A model generated the notes under the pieces. The model ran no database searches and was not told the DNA's origin. It worked only from the letters and a program-made list of their open reading frames with translations. From assembly GCA_910574455.1 (NCBI GenBank), contig CAJSYZ010000005.1, positions 2,418,001-2,482,000 of the forward strand: a stretch of DNA of 64,000 bases, written 5' to 3'. A program made the translations under genes and the position numbers. Positions within the stretch are counted from its first letter, which is position 1. Each line of letters starts with the position of its first letter. This DNA comes from Trichaptum fuscoviolaceum (taxonomy: Eukaryota; Basidiomycota; Agaricomycetes; Hymenochaetales; Trichaptaceae). Below are positions 37,811-59,400 of the stretch, piece by piece.

Positions 37811-38555
37811 ATGGAATATAAACGAGCATCCTTCAACTGCCTTTTCCTTAGCTTGTCGATACTGGTATCCTTCGTCTTATTTCCCCTTCTCCAAGAGGCA
37901 GGACCTGTAAGTTCTCCGATCTCCATCATTATATAGTCACTAACATAATGCATGTACTCAAGCACGGAGCGAAAGTAATATTGGAGAATATTATAACAGT
38001 GCCTTCATGCCACCCACGACGCTTAGTTCTAGTGACGACCCACACCCAACTGTATCCACTATCATTACTGAGACATTAGGCGAAGCTAACGCAATTCACC
38101 CCACTTCCATGGCGTCTTCTCCTTCGACATTGGATATGTCTGTCACTATTCCCTCGACGTCTGCATACGATTTCTCCACTCTAATTGACCCTCCAGCCAC
38201 AATCAACCCCTCGAGTGATATGGGCCCTTCAGCCACCATTTTCCCTTTACTTCCAGCGGCCTTGTTGCAGCCACCACCGCCAGCTGTTGAAACCAATGTT
38301 TCCCCGATTACTCTGGATCCGAGAATCGCGGGCGGACTCGGTGTTGGCTTTGTTGTCGTTGCCGGCCTCGTTATGTTTGTAATCCGGTGCTGGCTTCAGC
38401 AACGCCGTCTAACTCAAGCTTCTTCTACGGCAAGCAGTGGCGAAGGTGGTGAGGGCGAATTTCATGCTTTCATAAAGGGACGGGCTTCTGCCGGCGTGGA
38501 TGTTGAGAAAGGGACCAGAGACGTTGATCTGAGTTCAGGTAGTACTCACGAATAG
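37811..38555 (+). CDS. Single-pass membrane protein with Ser/Thr-rich ectodomain, family member A (possibly damaged)
   Basis: Exon 2 (from about 37963 or 38000 to 38555) encodes a Ser/Thr/Pro-rich region, then one membrane span (IAGGLGVGFVVVAGLVMFVIRCWLQQRR) and a tail without PPxY motifs. Upstream, ATG 37811 opens a typical signal peptide (FNCLFLSLSILVSFVLFPLLQEAGP). It is parallel to exon 1 of member C (FPLLNKAGP), with a GTAAGT donor right after GGACCT in both genes. In C this splice keeps the frame. In A the same donor runs into a stop soon after the matching acceptor, while a weaker donor (GTTCTC, 37911) joined to 37963 keeps the frame open. Either A uses the weaker donor or it is losing function. 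The function is unknown. Confidence 0.55.
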
Positions 38556-38866
38556 GACCACAAGATACTCATGTTGAGCACACCGAAGCCGGAAGCAATT
38601 CTGAACCAACTTCCTGTTCTGACGTTCCTGACATAGACCAACTACTTCGTAGACGCGTCGACTATCATGAGCGTCGACTGATCCGTCTTGCTTTTCAATT
38701 AGTACAAGCTACGCAACCACGAGGACTCTGTGTATTCGAAGTCCGTGAGGCCGCCGATAAGCGACGTAGTGACAAACCGAACTACCTGACTACTGGCGTA
38801 CGAAAGTTCAAGGTGATGATATTATGTGCCGTTCACCCAAGAAGAGGGAGTATTCAGATACCATGA
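38543..38866 (+). pseudogene. Long open frame without ATG directly after member A
   Basis: A 107-codon open frame overlaps the end of gene A in another phase and starts after a stop codon, without an early ATG. It reads as real protein (DQLLRRRVDYHERRLIRLAFQLV; TQPRGLCVFEVREAADKRRSD; NYLTTGVRKFKV). It could be the former cytoplasmic tail of member A separated by a frameshift, an exon reached by a splice I could not find, or a remnant of another gene. Between 38867 and 39300 more short coding-like fragments follow in mixed frames. Confidence 0.3.
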
Positions 38867-39549
38867 TCATTCAGAGTCAGTACGACGGTCACTACGAGCA
38901 TTTTACAAGTATCGAACTCACTTACTCGTATAATCCAAGAAATTTGAGATACTACAGACTCGTGTAAGAAGATCAGATATGTACGACCGTCTGATGCGGT
39001 ATCAGCGTATTCATAACGTTTGCCGCACACATCCTACAACTTCTCGACACGATCACCATTGCCATCGAATGCGGACTCCGTCATATATACTCTAATCATC
39101 AATCACAATGGCCATCAGACTTCGAGTCTGTGTTTGTTTAGGCCCATTATATCGGCAAAGCACCTTTACAAACTAACTTCGTTCCGTTTTCATGTTGAGG
39201 ATCGGGAGGGACTTCATTTGTCTTTGCTCGGACTGTTTCTCCCGAAACATCTGTGTCTTTCGAGAGCTTACTTCAAGTCACCTCCTCGAGCTAGGTGGAC
39301 ACTTCGACGAGCATCAAATCAATCAGAATCACTTCCTAGTACTACACATCATTCCTCGTCTACTCTGGCTCATTGGCCTCCTTCCCGACGCCGTCAACAA
39401 TTCACTCTTCCCGTACTAATTGGATACCATCATTGATTTTAAATATCTGCCAGTGAAGATTCTATATTCCTCAACTGTGTTGCATTTTTGATACTTCTCG
39501 AACAGTTCGCGATGGCAAAAACGCCCATTCGTATCCTAATGATATATCT
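38867..39549. other. Spacer between family members A and B
   Basis: About 680 bases with fragments of coding-like sequence in shifting frames (for example DMYDRLMRYQRIHNV near 38980) but no intact gene. No signal-peptide exon like those of members A and C was found in front of member B. Confidence 0.3.
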
Positions 39550-40443
39550 ATGTCGTTCAATTATCTCACACTCCCCTCTCCTCCCCCTTTGAACTCAAGC
39601 GGTATAATGTTGTGTGGTACTGGCAGAGGACTTTCGGACACGGACGATACCGTGGCGACATACACATCCTACCCACCGATATCATTTGCGGTTGACGAGA
39701 AACGATCTTTATCTTCCCCATCATTATCTAATTCAGCCTTGTTGACTTCTTCGCGGTCGAAGTCGTTCGCAATTGCCTCCACTATCACCCACGCTGGAAC
39801 GTCGATCATAAATGATATCGAAGCCTCACCAACACAGCTGCATGGCACAACCGACGTTTTGACCAAGACCGAAAATGTCGTAGGAATCACATTCATCGTC
39901 CTCATTATCCTCTTTACAATTGTACTGGTCGGATGCGGGGCCCGGATCTGCTTTCGGCGACGCCTTGGTCTTTCTCCAGTGAAACAGACGAAGCATCACG
40001 AAGTTAAAGTACCCTATTCCGTCATCGATGAGCCACCAGTCAGCATGGTTGCGCGAGGACTGCTCAGCGATGTCGAATCGACCTTAGGATCTTCTGATCA
40101 CGTCGATCAGATACTTCACGAAACACAAGAACGCCACGCCATTGTAGTCGAGAGCATAGCAGGATCGGAGTCCTCATCCATTCAACCGATCGCGAGTCAA
40201 ATGACTACCGCTCTAAATCTCCTAGATGAAGATCCTTTCGCAGACCCTGTCGCATCCTCATCTAGTCTTCCTGGTCCTCGCCCACCAAGTTCTAGTACAA
40301 GCAACGCGAGTTACGCGACTACATTACCTGTGTACTCCGAGTTTGTCGATACGCTAGTATCCGAAGAGACGAGAATTACAGGGAGCATCGACCGACCACC
40401 ATCTTACGAATCGAGGCTTAAAGGCACCAAGGAAAGTGCATAA
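39550..40443 (+). CDS. Single-pass membrane protein with PY-motif tail, family member B
   Basis: A 297-codon single-exon frame from ATG 39550. Residues 1-105 are Ser/Thr-rich (SLSSPSLSNSALLTSSRS). A single span follows at about 110-130 (VVGITFIVLIILFTIVLVGCG), with a basic stop-transfer (RICFRRR). The tail of about 165 residues carries, in order, DPF at 228-230, LPVYSE at 259-264 and RPPSYES at 282-288. PPxY is the classical ligand of WW domains in NEDD4/Rsp5 ubiquitin ligases, and DPF/NPF motifs bind endocytic adaptors. Members C and D share the same order. There is no signal peptide in this frame, so either an upstream exon was missed or the protein inserts by its internal span. The specific function is unknown. 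Confidence 0.65.
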   Translation: MSFNYLTLPSPPPLNSSGIMLCGTGRGLSDTDDTVATYTSYPPISFAVDEKRSLSSPSLSNSALLTSSRSKSFAIASTITHAGTSIINDIEASPTQLHGTTDVLTKTENVVGITFIVLIILFTIVLVGCGARICFRRRLGLSPVKQTKHHEVKVPYSVIDEPPVSMVARGLLSDVESTLGSSDHVDQILHETQERHAIVVESIAGSESSSIQPIASQMTTALNLLDEDPFADPVASSSSLPGPRPPSSSTSNASYATTLPVYSEFVDTLVSEETRITGSIDRPPSYESRLKGTKESA

Positions 40444-40866
40444 CGAGACAGAACAGGCGTCCTTGTGTGAAATTCGGGTCAGGACTATTGAAATCGGAGG
40501 AACTTGATCTATCCAAGTTGTGTATTTTTGTCATCTTGATCAACCCTCTCATGCTACTAGACATTCTTGCTCCACATCACTGGTATATCCCCAGTCATTT
40601 TCCGCTTACTGTTGCACGAGATCAAGCTATAGAGAATGTCCAGTACTATTTATGTTTTTCTTGTGACATGCAAGATGATATTCATTACAGCAAACTGTAC
40701 TGATTACTTCAAGCTGAAGGGATGACGCCTGCTGGGAATACTGATGAAGTTACTGGTCAAAGCGGTTACCACTAGATACTAGCACGCTTAATTATGTTGG
40801 AAACCATCATCATTGTAAGTGCTTCTAGTGTTTCGACTAATTCTCGTGGAATAGAAGTGATAGAGC
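40444..40866. other. Spacer between family members B and C
   Basis: About 420 bases separating two tandem genes of the same orientation. It should contain the 3' end of B and the promoter of C. No other gene was seen. Confidence 0.4.
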
Positions 40867-41789
40867 ATGAGGCAACGCTCTCTTAAAGTCTGTTCGATGT
40901 CTGTCCTGTTCTATACCCTTCCCCACTGTCACTGTAACTTTCCCCTACTCAACAAGGCAGGTCCTGTAAGTTCCCTTATACATCTCTCTAATCCGTAAGA
41001 TAACATATGGAATTGAAGGGTCGAGGCAATCATTTAATCATTCAAGGCACAACGTAGTAGTGCCGACAATCCTTCCTGGATAACGTGTCGCCTAGTTCTG
41101 ACGCTAGATCCAAGCTCACTGGCAATTTCGAAACATCTATAACGATGTCTAGCACCCCTTCAGTTCAGACGGATTCCGAGTCATCGTTCCCATTTCCCAG
41201 CAATGAAACTAAGGCTTCGCCCAATCCTGCTGACATTGTGGCCACCTCCGTAGTCATTTTCATCATTGTCGCAGCTGTAGCCCTCGCCTTCTCCGGAATC
41301 CGGTACCGCCGTAGACGACGATGCATAGATCAAGAGGAGCAGACGAAGGATCGTGAAACTCGTGAAAATGCTCGACATTTTTCTGTGCTCGGAATGCCCC
41401 CTGGAAACACGGACGAAAGAGGGCCTCGTAAATTTGAACGGACATCAGGGCCTACCGGTAAGGGCGACGAGCGTACTGTCGACGCGCAAGGGCTACGTGA
41501 CGATGATATCGAAAAGAATGTCTTCCAGAGTAGCTTGAGCTCTACGGCTCCGACTGGAAATACCGCATCCCCTCAGCCAATGGCCACTTGGAATGCAGAT
41601 CCCTTCGCGGTCGCAGACACGGCCAGACTGTCTCTTCCGATGAGTGACACAATCAATGCGTCTGTCTTGCCTTTGTATTCGGAAATCGTACAGCCGCCGC
41701 TGGCTCCCCACAGTCGCCAAAGTACCGTGCGCGCTGGCCGCCCACCGTCATATGAAGGTTTCGGAGACGGGAAACGAAGAGATGCATAG
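40867..41789 (+). CDS. Single-pass membrane protein with signal peptide and PY-motif tail, family member C
   Basis: Two exons. Exon 1 is 40867-40965 (33 codons, SVLFYTLPHCHCNFPLLNKAGP), followed by a 95-nt intron with a consensus GTAAGT donor. Exon 2 starts at 41061 in phase (CRQSFLDNVSPSSDA). The product is about 275 residues: a weak signal peptide, a Ser/Thr-rich ectodomain of about 55 residues, one span (ADIVATSVVIFIIVAAVALAFSGI) and a strongly basic RYRRRRR stop-transfer. The tail has DPF, then LPLYSE, then RPPSYEG close to the C-terminus, the same motif order as members B and D. A plain GTG-start frame exists from 41085, but the spliced form explains both the upstream ATG and the match to member A exon 1. 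Confidence 0.68.
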
Positions 41790-43576
41790 ACTTGGATTCA
41801 GAGAAGTCCGGAAGTTCAGAGTATTGCAGGCAGATGTCATATGTATTATTGGCGTTCAGCATCTCTTACACGTGTTTTCATGCCCTTGTCCTAAGGGTAT
41901 TTATTGTCCAAAGAAATCAAGATGTCTAGAGTATGTAAGTCTTGCATGAGATGTATATATATATAATGGACGTACTGTTGTGTATGAAGTCGAAGGCAAT
42001 TATACGTAAGGCATTTTGTTAAGCCAACTGAATGTCCAGTCTAACAGTCTGGAGTTCCAGGCTAAGCTCCGAACTCCACTATGCCAGCCACTTGCCAGCC
42101 GCCTATATTGGAATCCATCGTGCATATAAGGTAGGGCGCACGCCCAGCTCTCCTTAGATCCTACCACCGCATGCTCCTCAGCTTCGTCACACGGAGCTGC
42201 CCCGTTGTCCCAGCTCGCCAACGACCTTGACATTGAGGGGGACAATGTGGTGGTACGCTCCTGCAGTTTCGACGGGCTGCGCACCTGGGCTAGCAACCTC
42301 CCGCCCGGGCGCTTCTCTGGTGGCGGGCGCACCCAGCCGTGTCTGTGACCCATAGCTGCAGCATTCTTTTCTGTCGACTCGAACTCGGCGAGTGAGGTGC
42401 AGAGGTCGGATTTCCTCACTCACCCAATTATAGTCGGAGGGTGAGTGGCACAGAAGCTGAGAGGTACCGCTCGGCTCGGTCCTCTCCTCATCTCTACTTC
42501 CTCTCCGACGTGACCTTCGTGACCCTCGACCCACTGTCTGAGCTGACAGTACCAGCCGTTGAGGGGAGCGGCTCCATTGAGTTCCTCATATGGCTGGGCT
42601 GGAGGGCGGGCGGTGGGAGTGTCTTTCGAGGCGTGGGCGAGTCAGCAGCCGCGGTGGTGGTAGTCCCGGGATCCTGTTTCGTCCCCAACCGGTCATGCTT
42701 TATCTACAAAGCTATATGGGTCTGAAATGGTTAATACTTCTGTGTGTCGTATCTACGCTTAACTCACTGGCGTTTATCTAGGTCCACCTCCATATTGCAT
42801 GATCGCTTTGAGCTAGTCGAGTTCCAGGGAGATAAAGGTACGAGCTTTCTATCGTCACTCGGATTGCTTACTTGTCGAAAAGGGTCTACTTTGCCGATTT
42901 CGATTTGTGACTTTGACTCGGAGAACACCCGTTTTCTTGGTTTTGAGAGATAACAGAGGACAAGAATTACGGGACGGACTAAAAGTGCTCATAATGTCGA
43001 CGAATACTGATTCCTACTGACGATCTTCTAGTTGACTGCATTCACTTCATCCAGAAGGGAGAGCCTCTCCAGATAACAGACTTGTAATCAGGTCACCATA
43101 TCCAGCACAGCGGCAAGTCCAGGTATCATAGTAAGATACCAAGCGTGTCTGTATGTTGAAGAAGGTGAACTGGTACTTGAATTGGGGTGAAACAGTCAAA
43201 AGTCAAGTTTCAGCTGGAAGTTGTAAAAGATAATATTGAGCAAATCCAACTCACTTTGGGGAAAATGTAGCGCAAAGCTCATGGACGTATATACGGAAAG
43301 CCTTCACCAGAGTAGGGTGAAAACATAAGCTGAATGCTGTGCCAGGCCGGGTGACCCGACAACGACGATCTGCAAAAGGGTACGCCCGTCGTCACGCTAC
43401 AGATCATCCAGTACCCGCACGCCGCTTGAAGTCTGTTGATTGCGCAGTAATTCGTGAAGAGGGTATAATCCAACGTAGCACAGACACCCCCGCCTACATA
43501 GTAGCAGAAGACACGAGTTGCCTGAGAAAACGCCAACTCGAAATTTCGAGTACTGCCTTTCAAGTTCCGAGTCCTC
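41790..43576. other. Spacer containing repeat copy 2
   Basis: About 1.8 kb between members C and D. The dispersed repeat occupies at least 42020-42270 and may extend to about 42720. Overlapping open frames on both strands (42419-42000 minus, 42534-42187 minus, 42441-42725 plus) coincide with the G+C-rich repeat and are not supported as genes. The rest holds nothing recognisable. Confidence 0.4.
42005..42270 (+). repeat. Dispersed repeat / promoter-like fragment, copy 2
   Basis: Second copy of the repeat seen at 13.3-13.6 kb, same orientation. The 34-base block at 42069-42102 and the 17-base block at 42251-42267 match copy 1, with a TATA-like box at 42125 between them. Translating the opposite strand gives related peptides in both places (RLASGWHSGVRS here, RLVSGWHGGVRG in copy 1), which shows the similarity but not coding function. 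The differences between copies suggest old insertions. It sits between family members C and D. Confidence 0.55.
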
Positions 43577-44368
43577 ATGAGCGTGACTTTTACCACTACT
43601 AGTACCAGGACCACGGGAGGGCCGACACCGGGGAGCGAAACGTTGACGGAACTTGTGCTCAAAAGTACTGCGTCTGGATCATCGTCATCGATATCCTCGT
43701 CGTCGGCAAGCACAACGTCGGGATCTCTTTCTGCTTCTACTCGGCGAGGAAATGCGACCGTATCTGCCACCAATGTATCAACGTCGTCCGTAACCGATGC
43801 AACCGGAGTGACATCCACCCGTCGGCCATACCTTATTGGAATCAGCGTAGGGGTAGCACTGGTCGCGCTCATCATCCTTGGATGCTGCATACTGTATATT
43901 CGACAACGGAAACGCAGCCGGCGTGCAGAAGAAGCGAGAAAACGGATGGACACAACGATGCTTCGTCAAGCAGTTGGATTGCCTCCGGTCAGCGTCAGTG
44001 CTATGGGAAGGACTAGGGAGGACCGCCGAAATTCAGACGCGCATTGGAATAGACTGCAACATGGCCAGGGGGAGCATCATGATGCTGCATCGGATCTGCA
44101 GCAGCCACCGGACTATGACCTACTCACTCCGAGCTCTGCGCCTCTAATACAGTCACGGTCTACGATTAACACGGACTATTCAAACCCGTTCGCAGATCCA
44201 AATCCTTTTGCCGATGCACGCAGCTTGGCTCGAACAACCAGCAGCGCGAGTAGCCGGACTACATTACCTGGATACACGGAATACGAGCATCTCAATGGGA
44301 TATTGATGCACGTCGACCTTCCTCCGTTATATGAGGATATCCATGCGCTGAGAAGATCGGATAGCTAG
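43577..44368 (+). CDS. Single-pass membrane protein with NPF and PY motifs, family member D
   Basis: A 263-codon single-exon frame from ATG 43577. Residues 1-82 are an extreme Ser/Thr-rich stretch (TFTTTSTRTTGG; SSSSISSSSASTTSGS), likely O-mannosylated. One span lies at about 85-108 (PYLIGISVGVALVALIILGCCILYI), with a basic stop-transfer RQRKRSRR. The tail carries PPDY (177-180), two NPFAD repeats (203-213), LPGYTEYE (230-237) and LPPLYED (248-254). The start without a signal peptide is common for this type of mushroom membrane protein, where the internal span directs insertion. A surface sensor or adhesion-like protein controlled by endocytosis is an inference from motifs only. Confidence 0.7.
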   Translation: MSVTFTTTSTRTTGGPTPGSETLTELVLKSTASGSSSSISSSSASTTSGSLSASTRRGNATVSATNVSTSSVTDATGVTSTRRPYLIGISVGVALVALIILGCCILYIRQRKRSRRAEEARKRMDTTMLRQAVGLPPVSVSAMGRTREDRRNSDAHWNRLQHGQGEHHDAASDLQQPPDYDLLTPSSAPLIQSRSTINTDYSNPFADPNPFADARSLARTTSSASSRTTLPGYTEYEHLNGILMHVDLPPLYEDIHALRRSDS

Positions 44369-56442: not shown

Positions 56443-59400
56443 TTAAAAGATGGGAATCTTCACTCTTGGAAGGCCCTTCGAAGCTTCCAACTGGACTATC
56501 TCACAATCGGCTTCAGAGCCGTCTCCAATCTGTGTCTCAACACACGTGAAGTCGATCGTCTGTAATGTGGATCTAAGTTAGTAAATTGGGTTTGCGCAAG
56601 ATTGAATAACACGCATTACAGTTTCGAGTGCTACCATTGGGTGGTCTTTTGAGGGAAAAGGTAAACCCCGACATTAGTTCTTTGCAGATAATATCCATAG
56701 TCAAACAAAGCCACTTACGCCAAACTCCAGTCGCATACACAACCGCCTGGCCCGCACCAGCCACGAAAGCCCTAAGCGTACACAAATCTGGTTTATCATC
56801 TTCACCATTCTTTGCCACCACGACTAAATAGGCCCTTCCCGGTTTCTCCAACGCATCATCGCCCTTCAGACCATCACCAGAGCCTACACTCATAGGAACG
56901 AATGCCTGATTTGTATACCGATGCCGCTCCAGAAGCTTTACAGCCCAACCAGCGCCTTTTTGAGTCACATCTTTTGTAACATCAAAGTCCAGAGGCTTGC
57001 ATCGATAGACAGAAAGCGCTGGGTTCGCGCGTGAGGCCAGCTCGGGCGGATAGGAAGAGAGAATGGGTGCAAGTTTGTGGAACTTGGTTGCTGAGCCTTG
57101 GTTTGCGGACGTGACTTTTGTCCCGCGTGGAACGGCATTGACATCTCCGAATGCCTGGACAACGTGTCCGAAAGGCACAAACGCCTCAGGTGTGAGTGGA
57201 AGTGCGGGGATTGTCGCACCCACCGGCTCAACAGGTGACGAAGGGACAGGTGTGTGCACAGACGTTATGGGTGTTACAGTTCCATGCACGCCGTTGATGA
57301 GTACTCTTTGAGTCTCGTTGACAAGTGTATCATCAGTCGCAGCCGAGGCCGCTTCGACCGTCTCTGCGGTCTCAGTATCCTCAGAAGTTGTGGTGAGCAA
57401 TTTTGTATCCGGGGTAGCACGTTTTCCGATAACCCGGACGCGCTTCAGGCCGCCATCGGGATAGATAGTCACGCGTACATGTGAAAATACTCGACCTTGC
57501 ACGTTCTCTAGCTGGAAGTAATGTTGCCTATGGGGCCCGAGCTTCGTTCTTGGCAGAATGTTTGTCCACTCCTCCTCACTTGCTGTGGGGATGATCTACG
57601 GGCTTACTATGAGACTCGACCATCATATGCAGTAAAGCTGGGCGGGCTTGACTCACATCCTCTGAATACAGGGCATGGAGCTCGCAGCTTTCCGGAAAGT
57701 TGCCCATAAAATGAGCAGTGTCGAGTTCTGTCTGCTCAAGAAAACCGGGCTCGCCACTGCAGATTGTACTACTTAAAAATTTGTTCATATCATGTAGAAA
57801 CTCTAAATGACGCACAGTTTGATGATGACCCAGTCTTTATGGCCTTTTACACGACTTCTTCTCGTTTCCCATCCATCACCCATGTTAACGCCTATAAAAA
57901 GGCATTACGCCCACCCTTCCAATATTTCACGAGAATGTACATACCCCGGCCAGGCAAGATCAAATTTGACCCTACACCGAAGTGTTGATCAGACACGAAG
58001 ACGACGCGTCCGCCGGCAAAGACGTGCGCGAGGTCGACGTTCTCGCTGGCATCCTCTGGGAAGACAGCCCGGATGAGCCCGTATGTGCGGAACCTTGCCT
58101 AGTGAGCCAAAAGGTGAGCATATCGATGAAAAGGCAGAGATGAACTGAGCGTACGATGCCACCGTCAGGATACATGTTGAGCTTTACGTAGTTGAACGGC
58201 TCAGTGGTGTTCGGGACCTTGAAGAGGTGGCGCGAGTTAGGGCCTAATGCCACTTTCGGGAGAATCTCTTCCCACTATACACGCGATCGCGCAATCATCA
58301 ATATAGATTGAAAGGTGTAGAGACGAGGTAAGTAGACGCAGAAGGCGAAGAGATCGATATTGTTGACCCACCCGCAGGTCGTTTTCCTTCGGAGCTTTGT
58401 CTCCGACGTCCAGGAGAGCTTGTACAGACGCTTCGGGTGCTTCATTCCCTATTATCACGAAGATGTGGAGTTAAGCCAAACTAAAACGAACCACATGAGC
58501 AAGCACGAGTGATGGAAGAGGCGTACCATTGAAATGCGCAGTGTCTATGTCAAAACCAGATATAACACCCGCGGCGCCAAACTTGATTATACACCTATTA
58601 AGTGGAATGAACAGACCCGGATCTCAGCATACAGAACAATACGAACTTCGGTTTAAAGTAAGGTACAAAAGTGCGACAGGTTGTCTTGGAAGGGAGTATA
58701 TGCGGGGAGAGCGGCTTGTACGGAATAGATCCAGACGGGCGTGAAAAGGAGTGGATGGACGGATACAATCAAAATCCGAAGGCATGCGTCATGGAATCAT
58801 TTCATTGATCGAATAAAGCACAGCAAACACTGCTCTGAACGTGAAAGGAGATGAAGTGGATCAACGGAGATTGTCTGGGAAGCTTCAGAGATGTATAAAA
58901 GATACAATGGTACATATCGGAGGTATACGCACCAGTCATGTTCGCGGTTATGCCGTCTGGTCTCCCAACCGCTGTATAGCGCACCCTTGAGTCCAAATTG
59001 ACCCTTTAGGCTCGGTGCTGGCTAATAATCCGAACGTACATACGGACATTTACATGAGAACGACATCCACGCCAGCTGCCTATGGTATTGAGCACGTACC
59101 TCCACCTTGATGAGGTTGTCCGCCTCCGCAAAGAACTCATCTGACACGGCAACAATCTCACCGCCGAGCGCTACACTGGAAATCTCTGTGCGAATCAAGA
59201 TGGTCAGTCATGACATTGCTTCCTTCTTCCGTTCATTTGCGCTCTGGTGGCTGAATGGACTCGAACGTGCGAAGCGCTTCTCAGCAGCTCGTGTGCCCCG
59301 AGAATTGCGCAATGCACTCGTGTTTGTGTTCCCAAGCATATCCCAAGCGCTTAAGAAGGCTTAAAGAGATGCACTATAGCGCAAATGAACGGCTAATAAT

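Follow-up and report, generated by a model that had tools for sequence, protein, structure and literature searches.

Tandem genes of Trichaptum fuscoviolaceum encode predicted single-pass membrane proteins with a homologous motif-bearing tail and dissimilar ectodomains

Results

The window, the whole stretch of 64,000 nucleotides of Trichaptum fuscoviolaceum DNA that was analysed, carries three neighbouring genes, termed B, C and D, and a further gene, A, all on the plus strand. Gene B (39550..40443) encodes a single-pass protein of 297 amino acids with the membrane span at 39877-39933, and gene D (43577..44368) a single-pass protein of 263 amino acids with the span at 43835-43891. Gene C (40867..41789) is modelled with a putative first exon at 40867-40965, followed by GTAAGT at 40966, and an exon 2 frame at 41061-41789 that contains the span (41235-41291); its 5' end is uncertain, with the relative P0010 beginning at a Met that matches residue 9 of exon 2. 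The model of gene A (37811..38555) is likewise putative and consists of a putative signal exon at 37811-37906 (GTAAGT at 37907) and a span-containing frame at 37944-38555 (span at ~38328-38384), the acceptor and reading frame of exon 2 being uncertain. The frames of B, C (exon 2) and D are open, and codon usage shows no coding signal in any frame for all four genes A, B, C and D.

B, C and D each contain a single strongly hydrophobic stretch with basic residues after it, the best 19-residue Kyte-Doolittle means being 3.07, 2.94 and 2.79, respectively, compared with next best values of 0.82, 0.76 and 0.66. The basic residues predict a cytosolic tail after the single span, an arrangement also found in Comm and the PRRG proteins. 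Ser and Thr make up 32% of the N-terminal part in B, 34% in C and 51% in D (27% in A), and the ectodomains contain 0-1 cysteines. Frames, hydropathy and composition together bear out the description in the earlier note of neighbouring proteins with a Ser/Thr-rich ectodomain, a single span and a basic stop-transfer.

Wsc1 and Mid2 are likewise built from a Ser/Thr-rich N-terminal part and one span, and B, C and D could be surface sensors or wall-contact proteins of this type, in which the Ser/Thr-rich part would form an O-glycosylated wall stalk and the tail motifs would set only turnover or polarity. A precedent for such a tail is a yeast wall-stress sensor taken up by endocytosis through NPFXD, reportedly the subject of Piao et al. 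2007 (cited in PMC7889276). However, a Pfam scan of the four frames (for A and C, the exon 2 frames) gives nothing above cut-off, with no WSC match listed for the scanned frames and the Mid2 profile PF04478 reaching 13.4 bits in D against a cut-off of 23.2 (no listing for A, B or C). At 109 residues in B, 58 in C (exon 2 alone) and 86 in D, the N-terminal parts are short, B and D have no obvious signal peptide as judged by eye, and the tails of B, C and D contain two to three PY motifs each, which to our knowledge form no part of the sensor model. Sensors of the Wsc1/Mid2 type are a possible but doubtful identity for these proteins. In the same scan none of A-D has a listed match to the Pfam Rcr family, the profile expected for Rcr1/Rcr2, and no Gla domain is listed at E<=10 among the four scanned frames. 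In an AlphaFold2 model of B, built from 6 sequences, confidence is restricted to the membrane helix and its surroundings (mean pLDDT 40.4, pTM 0.16).

The tail motifs quoted for each protein are present in the quoted order. The tail of B contains DPFAD (40231..40245, plus strand, as are all motifs given here), a DPFxD variant of the Sla1-type internalisation motif as classed in PMC7889276, followed by the PY-type LPxY motif LPVYSE (40324..40341) and the PPxY motif PPSYE (40396..40410). In C these are DPFAV (41598..41612), a DPF only, lacking both the Asn and the spaced Asp of the Sla1-type site, LPLYSE (41667..41684) and PPSYE (41742..41756). The tail of D has an additional PPxY, PPDY (44105..44116), absent from B and C, then NPFADPNPFAD (44183..44215) with two copies of NPFxD (same classification), LPGYTE (44264..44281) and PPLYE (44321..44335). 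Counting LPxY, there are two PY motifs in the tails of B and C and three in that of D, and the start-to-start spacing of LPxY and PPxY is 19-25 residues. In context the pairs read LPVYSEFV/PPSYE (B), LPLYSEIV/PPSYE (C) and LPGYTEYE/PPLYE (D), so that all three proteins combine the LPxY with acidic and hydrophobic residues plus PPxY known from Comm/PRRG with the NPFxD or weaker DPFxD/DPF of Sla1 cargo in a predicted cytosolic tail. B, C and D carry the motifs in the loose order [DN]PF-LPxY-PPxY and also in the strict order [DN]PFA-LPxY[ST]E-PPxYE. For all four tails, neither order arises in any of the 100,000 shuffles made per tail, and the loose triple occurs in 3 of the 128 stop-to-stop frames of at least 100 codons in the window, these being B, C and D. 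The fixed order that had been proposed is real, and the related gene A, as had also been stated, has it in neither form.

Every pairing of B, C and D shows homologous tails, with no detectable homology between the ectodomains. Protein alignments of the tails give z values of 13.6 (B-C), 12.0 (B-D) and 8.2 (C-D), each score reached in 0 of 1000 shuffles, whereas the observed ectodomain scores of the three pairs are reached in 308, 118 and 743 of 1000. At the DNA level the span plus tail gives 0/500 shuffles for both B-C and B-D, compared with 493/500 (B-C) and 205/500 (B-D) for the ectodomains. C-D is the weakest pair, with no tail similarity in DNA (199/500 shuffles) and tblastn E values of 0.14 and 1.6, compared with 2e-6 and 6e-10 for B-C and 1e-4 and 5e-8 for B-D. 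A PP near the membrane also belongs to the common stretch, and from the alignments the shared tail is a single homologous stretch and not three independent motifs. The contrast drawn in the earlier note between very different ectodomains and a kept tail holds, in the form of paralogues whose ectodomains have no detectable homology.

Gene A is related at the DNA level to C only, and through the 5' part, with 40939..41136 of C (plus strand) homologous to 37880-38076 of A (z 10.2; 0/500 shuffles). The juxtamembrane protein similarity of A and C is weak (6/1000 shuffles), and the DNA comparison of their spans plus tails gives 57/500. In sequence terms C looks like a mosaic, an A-like 5' part joined to a span and tail that resemble those of B. 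A is rejected as a full family member because its tail lacks the motifs. A tblastn search of full-length A-D against the window (E<=5) gives no B, C or D match within 38556-39500.

Searches of the 59-Mb genome point to a family confined to this one locus, as far as they reach. The B tail at E<=10 matches only B, C (E 0.118) and D (E 1.04), which together with the alignments supports the proposal of local paralogues with unlike ectodomains and a conserved tail; the C tail matches only C. Full-length queries retrieve B and D for B, with C not among the matches, C itself and locus L025 (E 0.026) for C, and no relative other than itself for A at E<=1. Full-length D gives 15 matches, namely D, B and 13 weaker ones, all contained in the loci L001-L025, within which frames of >90 codons with [DN]PF and either LPxY or PPxY are B, C and D only. 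The frames inspected at 8 of the 13 weaker loci (L009, L010, L011, L013, L014, L015, L018, where the inspected frame differs from the matched one, and L020) are mostly Ser/Thr-rich or of low complexity. The D tail has three weak matches outside the locus, two of which (C7 and C8) lie within L001-L025 and so are already covered by that scan, and the third (C1, in L028) has no LPxY or PPxY. A DNA pattern for PP-x-Y-E-G gives 6 matches including C, compared with 4 for the reversed-pattern control.

Eleven relatives were found, five of B (P0004, P0005, P0007, P0008, P0009), two of C (P0010, P0011) and four of D (P0001, P0002, P0003, P0006), each at no less than 70% identity to its own orthologue. 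With the frame-changed P0005 left out, 2 of 196 cells differ at the motif positions of the other ten compared with 114 of 1265 in the remaining tail, and without P0011 as well the counts are 1/180 and 65/1120, a comparison that is over-counted since the relatives are few, close and not independent. These genes could be decaying orphans whose tails are alike by common descent only, with no function maintaining them. Consistent with decay, the frame change in P0005 removes both PY motifs and alters 9 of 16 motif positions, P0011 has a linker that reads unlike C and a Tyr to His change that loses the LPxY tyrosine (41667..41684 in C), A is without the tail, codon usage is uninformative for A-D, and 7 of the 11 relatives (P0002, P0003, P0006, P0007, P0008, P0009, P0011) have gene calls that begin only at an internal Met, although these short calls may be a gene-caller effect. 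Decay is nevertheless quite improbable, as the ordered motifs persist in 9 of the 11 relatives and, between paralogues, the N-terminal similarity has been lost yet that of the tail kept.

The same relatives bear on the rate at which the ectodomains change. Orthologue differences in three relatives amount to 31/245 in the N-terminal part and 27/490 in the tail, suggesting that among orthologues the N-terminal part changes only moderately faster. A rapidly changing set of proteins that recognise self/non-self or the environment would fit the tandem paralogues with their unrelated-looking ectodomains, the mosaic gene C and the restriction of relatives to close orthologues. That moderate rate, the lack of any Pfam match above cut-off, a B model with no confident fold and the 0-1 cysteines argue against recognition, to which we give little credence; the receptors, sensors or adhesins for self/non-self contact suggested in the earlier note find no positive support here.

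Discussion

The fungal reader of NPFX(1,2)D, and of the weaker DPFxD/DPF, is the SHD1 domain of Sla1 according to PMC7889276, and the genome contains one SHD1 match. LPxY is itself described as a Rsp5 determinant, beside PPxY as a Rsp5 ligand (PMC1557994), and among 13 WW matches in the genome six form two groups of three with HECT pieces alongside. Reading PPxY as directed toward the WW domains of Rsp5/NEDD4 ligases is plausible, and may be extended to LPxY, given these two WW-plus-HECT places. Where NPF had been assigned to EH domains and DPF to AP2, the [DN]PF motifs are there but SHD1 of Sla1 is preferred for fungi; EH and AP2, which may also act as readers, are set aside as the main ones on the motif definition given in the review PMC7889276. 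Judged by their motifs, the inner tails probably hook the proteins to the internalisation and ubiquitin machinery.

Animals and yeast already provide examples of single-pass proteins whose PY motifs steer NEDD4-type ligases. The mammalian NDFIP2 has several membrane spans, a difference from B, C and D, which are likened to it and to mammalian SUSD6 by their PPxY/LPxY motifs. PPxY and LPxY recruit a NEDD4-type ligase and activate it when combined; for WWP2, both engagement and activation by NDFIP2 depend on several PY motifs, and SUSD6 has one span and an LPxY (PMC12720080). In the single-pass PRRG proteins of animals, acidic and hydrophobic residues come after LPxY, and PPxY lies beyond them, while the similar Comm has the motifs in another order. 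Comm and PRRG proteins bind Nedd4 WW domains, Comm and two PRRGs are without a signal sequence, and conservation outside the motifs is low (PMC5578492). B, C and D resemble these in being small and single-pass with LPxY and acidic/hydrophobic residues, and PPxY follows LPxY as in the PRRGs. Compared with GLPSYDEAL of Comm, the acidic residue lies one place later in B, C and D, and D has a Tyr after it. They differ further in having no Gla-domain match, an added [N/D]PF(xD) site and a tandem arrangement, and no homology is claimed. In the same source the yeast membrane proteins Rcr1/Rcr2 have cytoplasmic PY motifs and affect permease surface expression, Rcr1 binds Rsp5, and their overall structure is likened to Comm (PMC5578492). 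B, C and D are also membrane proteins with PY motifs in the tail, but those of Rcr1/Rcr2 are PPSY and VPEY, NPFxD does not appear in the available portion of PMC5578492, and an Rcr-family match is absent here. The wtf meiotic drivers of fission yeast, also membrane proteins, bind ligases of the Rsp5/NEDD4 family through PY motifs (PMC10721834); they are multi-span with the motifs in an N-terminal tail, whereas B, C and D have one strong span and give no evidence of drive.

That B, C and D are tandem paralogues with an inherited trafficking tail, acting as Comm/Rcr-like single-pass trafficking proteins or ligase adaptors, has in our judgement about an even chance of being correct. In the mechanism that we infer, from topology and every binding event to localisation and adaptor role, the C-terminal tail would be an inherited trafficking module, in which SHD1 of Sla1 would recognise the [N/D]PF(xD) site, and LPxY and PPxY would bind two WW domains of the Rsp5/NEDD4-type ligases of the genome. 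The proteins would reach the plasma membrane, become internalised and then be recycled or sent to the vacuole. Most likely they would serve as membrane adaptors bringing the ligase to partners bound through the span or the N-terminal part, by analogy with Comm/PRRG, Rcr1 or the Ndfips. The tail of D contains only 2 lysines, both at most 17 residues from the span, so an adaptor fits at least as well as a substrate. The short, low-complexity ectodomain would be free to change or be exchanged, as C, with its two apparent origins, may exemplify. A bolder and rather unlikely extension is that the dual-reader tail, Sla1-type NPFxD/DPFxD with paired LPxY/PPxY, is a fixed cassette that receives new, unrelated ectodomains by recombination, one locus thereby supplying novel adaptors or receptors of the plasma membrane that carry their own internalisation signals, C being one product.

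A fungal family of this kind is not described in the titles and abstract beginnings among the matches listed in a literature search. Single-pass proteins that steer ligases through PY motifs easily escape recognition, since they conserve little apart from these motifs. Paralogues in an array that keep the sorting tail and little else offer natural replicates for whether the tails are the selected part, and could test whether a code that joins Sla1-type and ligase-type signals marks out a class of fungal surface proteins missed by sequence searches. Other single-pass proteins in the genome, at L013 and L014, also end in PPxY, and PPxY alone is for that reason unremarkable.

Gene Layout and Protein Anatomy

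The four neighbouring plus-strand genes A, B, C and D each encode a Ser/Thr-rich N-terminal part (the ectodomain) followed by a single strong hydrophobic stretch and then basic residues. B (39550-40443, 297 amino acids) and D (43577-44368, 263 amino acids) are single open frames, C consists of an exon 2 frame (41061-41789) with a putative first exon at 40867-40965, and A of a frame at 37944-38555 with a putative first exon starting at 37811. None of the four frames scanned reached a Pfam cut-off, and in none of the frames did codon usage give a coding signal. An AlphaFold2 model of B, built from 6 sequences, has 16 residues with a pLDDT of 70-90 and none higher, located around the span. At 37811-38080 in A and 40867-41140 in C, the intron borders that look most natural by eye change the frame after the signal exon so that it soon stops, and with these borders A and C would be short secreted peptides rather than membrane proteins; the first exon may have been mis-called, or splicing may be alternative.

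The Tail of B, C and D

The tails, C-terminal to the span, share the order membrane-near PP, [DN]PFA, an SNAS/INAS/SSAS stretch, LPxY[ST]E and PPxYE in an alignment that shifts the DPF of C by a few columns, the starts of LPxY and PPxY lying 19-25 residues apart. The motif order described in the earlier note is real; 100,000 shuffles per tail never reproduced it. Protein tail scores for B-C, B-D and C-D lie above all 1000 shuffles, whereas ectodomain scores are matched by 308, 118 and 743 of 1000 shuffles, respectively. In DNA, B resembles both C and D over the span and tail (0/500 shuffles each); for C-D no DNA-level similarity is seen (199/500) and tblastn inside the window gives E values of 0.14 and 1.6 only, so the case for kinship between C and D consists of the protein shuffle test and the likeness of both to B. 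Judged by sequence comparison, the tail is a homologous module.

C appears to be a mosaic. Positions 37880-38076 of A and 40939-41136 of C are homologous in DNA (0/500 shuffles), a stretch that runs from the end of the putative signal exon through a GTAAGT into exon 2, and A and C show no significant similarity in the span and tail (57/500). In the span and tail C is similar to B (0/500), and the B and C ectodomains are not significantly similar in DNA (493/500). The simplest reading is that C would have arisen by recombination of an A-like 5' part with a B-like 3' part; alternatively, the 5' part of B may have lost its similarity.

Conservation and Copy Number

The protein collection yielded close relatives only, one of the searches having scored just the 7992 candidates with most shared words: P0001, P0002, P0003 and P0006 for D, P0004, P0005, P0007, P0008 and P0009 for B, and P0010 and P0011 for C. 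The ordered triple of [DN]PF, LPxY and PPxY is retained in 9 of the 11. In P0005, a single member sequence, the reading changes just ahead of LPxY and both PY motifs (LPxY and PPxY) are gone; in P0011 a His replaces the LPxY tyrosine and the linker is unlike that of C, by eye a shifted frame. Without P0005, 2/196 motif cells differ compared with 114/1265 other tail cells (49 from P0011), and without both P0005 and P0011, 1/180 compared with 65/1120; the p-values for motifs against the rest (1.2e-5 and 8e-4) are too small because the relatives are not independent. For the three relatives in which the N-terminal part is present and the frame unchanged, N-terminal and tail differences are 24/109 and 20/167 (P0004), 3/86 and 1/158 (P0001), and 4/50 and 6/165 (P0010). 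P0005 has 26/109 N-terminal differences.

Six-frame searches of the genome (59,093,390 bases, 12 contigs) with A, B, C, D and the tails of B, C and D turned up no additional ordered-tail gene among the best first-look candidates, which are all that is scored, so distant copies could escape. Full-length A matched itself, B matched B and D, C matched itself and one place at E 0.026, and D matched itself, B at 2e-8 and 13 weaker places, where a motif scan of the loci found no further ordered-tail copy. The B tail matched B, C (E 0.118) and D (E 1.04) and nothing else at E<=10, the C tail itself, and the D tail itself and three weak places. Locus L014, matched by D, encodes at 1399-2247 a Ser/Thr-rich, single-pass-looking protein ending in PPVYEE, which shows that a single span with PPxY at the C-terminal end is a repeated arrangement in the same genome. 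Another such locus, L013 (919-2205), encodes a single-pass-looking protein with PPPSY near the C terminus and a CFEM-like stretch just under the cut-off (21.5 versus 22 bits).

B, C and D are a real, well-defined local family, as the earlier note proposed, with a kept tail and unrelated-looking ectodomains; its self/non-self idea found no support. The parts are ordinary, and what is unusual is their combination and the kept tail set against such ectodomains.

Candidate Readers and Proposed Mechanism

In yeast, according to PMC7889276, NPFX(1,2)D directs endocytosis via the Sla1 SHD1 domain, and DPFxD, NPF and DPF are less effective. D has two NPFxD sites, B a DPFxD and C a DPF. PMC1557994 describes LPxY as a degenerate PY motif and Rsp5 determinant. 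PMC5578492 offers parallels in the PRRG proteins, which are small and single-pass with LPxY then PPxY, arranged as in B, C and D, in Comm, a small single-pass protein with the same PY pair in the other order, and in yeast Rcr1. For NDFIP2, PMC12720080 reports that several PY motifs are required for WWP2 engagement and activation.

The genome has one SHD1 match. Two Rsp5/NEDD4-type places, on contigs C1 (2.126-2.128 Mb; G000:C1:2125998-2128074) and C8 (1.646-1.648 Mb; G000:C8:1646393-1648427), each carry three WW domains with adjoining HECT pieces. The SHD1, WW and HECT matches, like the putative short introns, are consistent with a fungal genome. Budding yeast has one Rsp5/NEDD4-type gene. The B, C and D tails would be internalised via a Sla1-type SHD1, and LPxY with PPxY would engage an Rsp5/NEDD4-type ligase, each binding step being one that we infer. 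Because of the motif classes, the candidate readers in the genome and the PRRG, Comm, Rcr1 and NDFIP2 parallels, we favour B, C and D as probable ligase adaptors or cycling membrane proteins ahead of recognition receptors.

Neighbourhood of the Array

Between C and D lies a dispersed repeat (42047-42483), parts of which match five other places at 66-78% identity (on contigs C2 and C3 and three on C5), perhaps a mobile-element remnant; another 25 bases of this intergenic stretch match a sixth place. Downstream of D, the first part of a gene for the TFIIH p62 subunit (PF08567, 45904-46434) is a possible anchor for synteny. A single minus-strand open frame at 56576-57595 contains ureidoglycolate lyase together with the terminal part of an allantoicase repeat, which suggests a fused purine-degradation gene.
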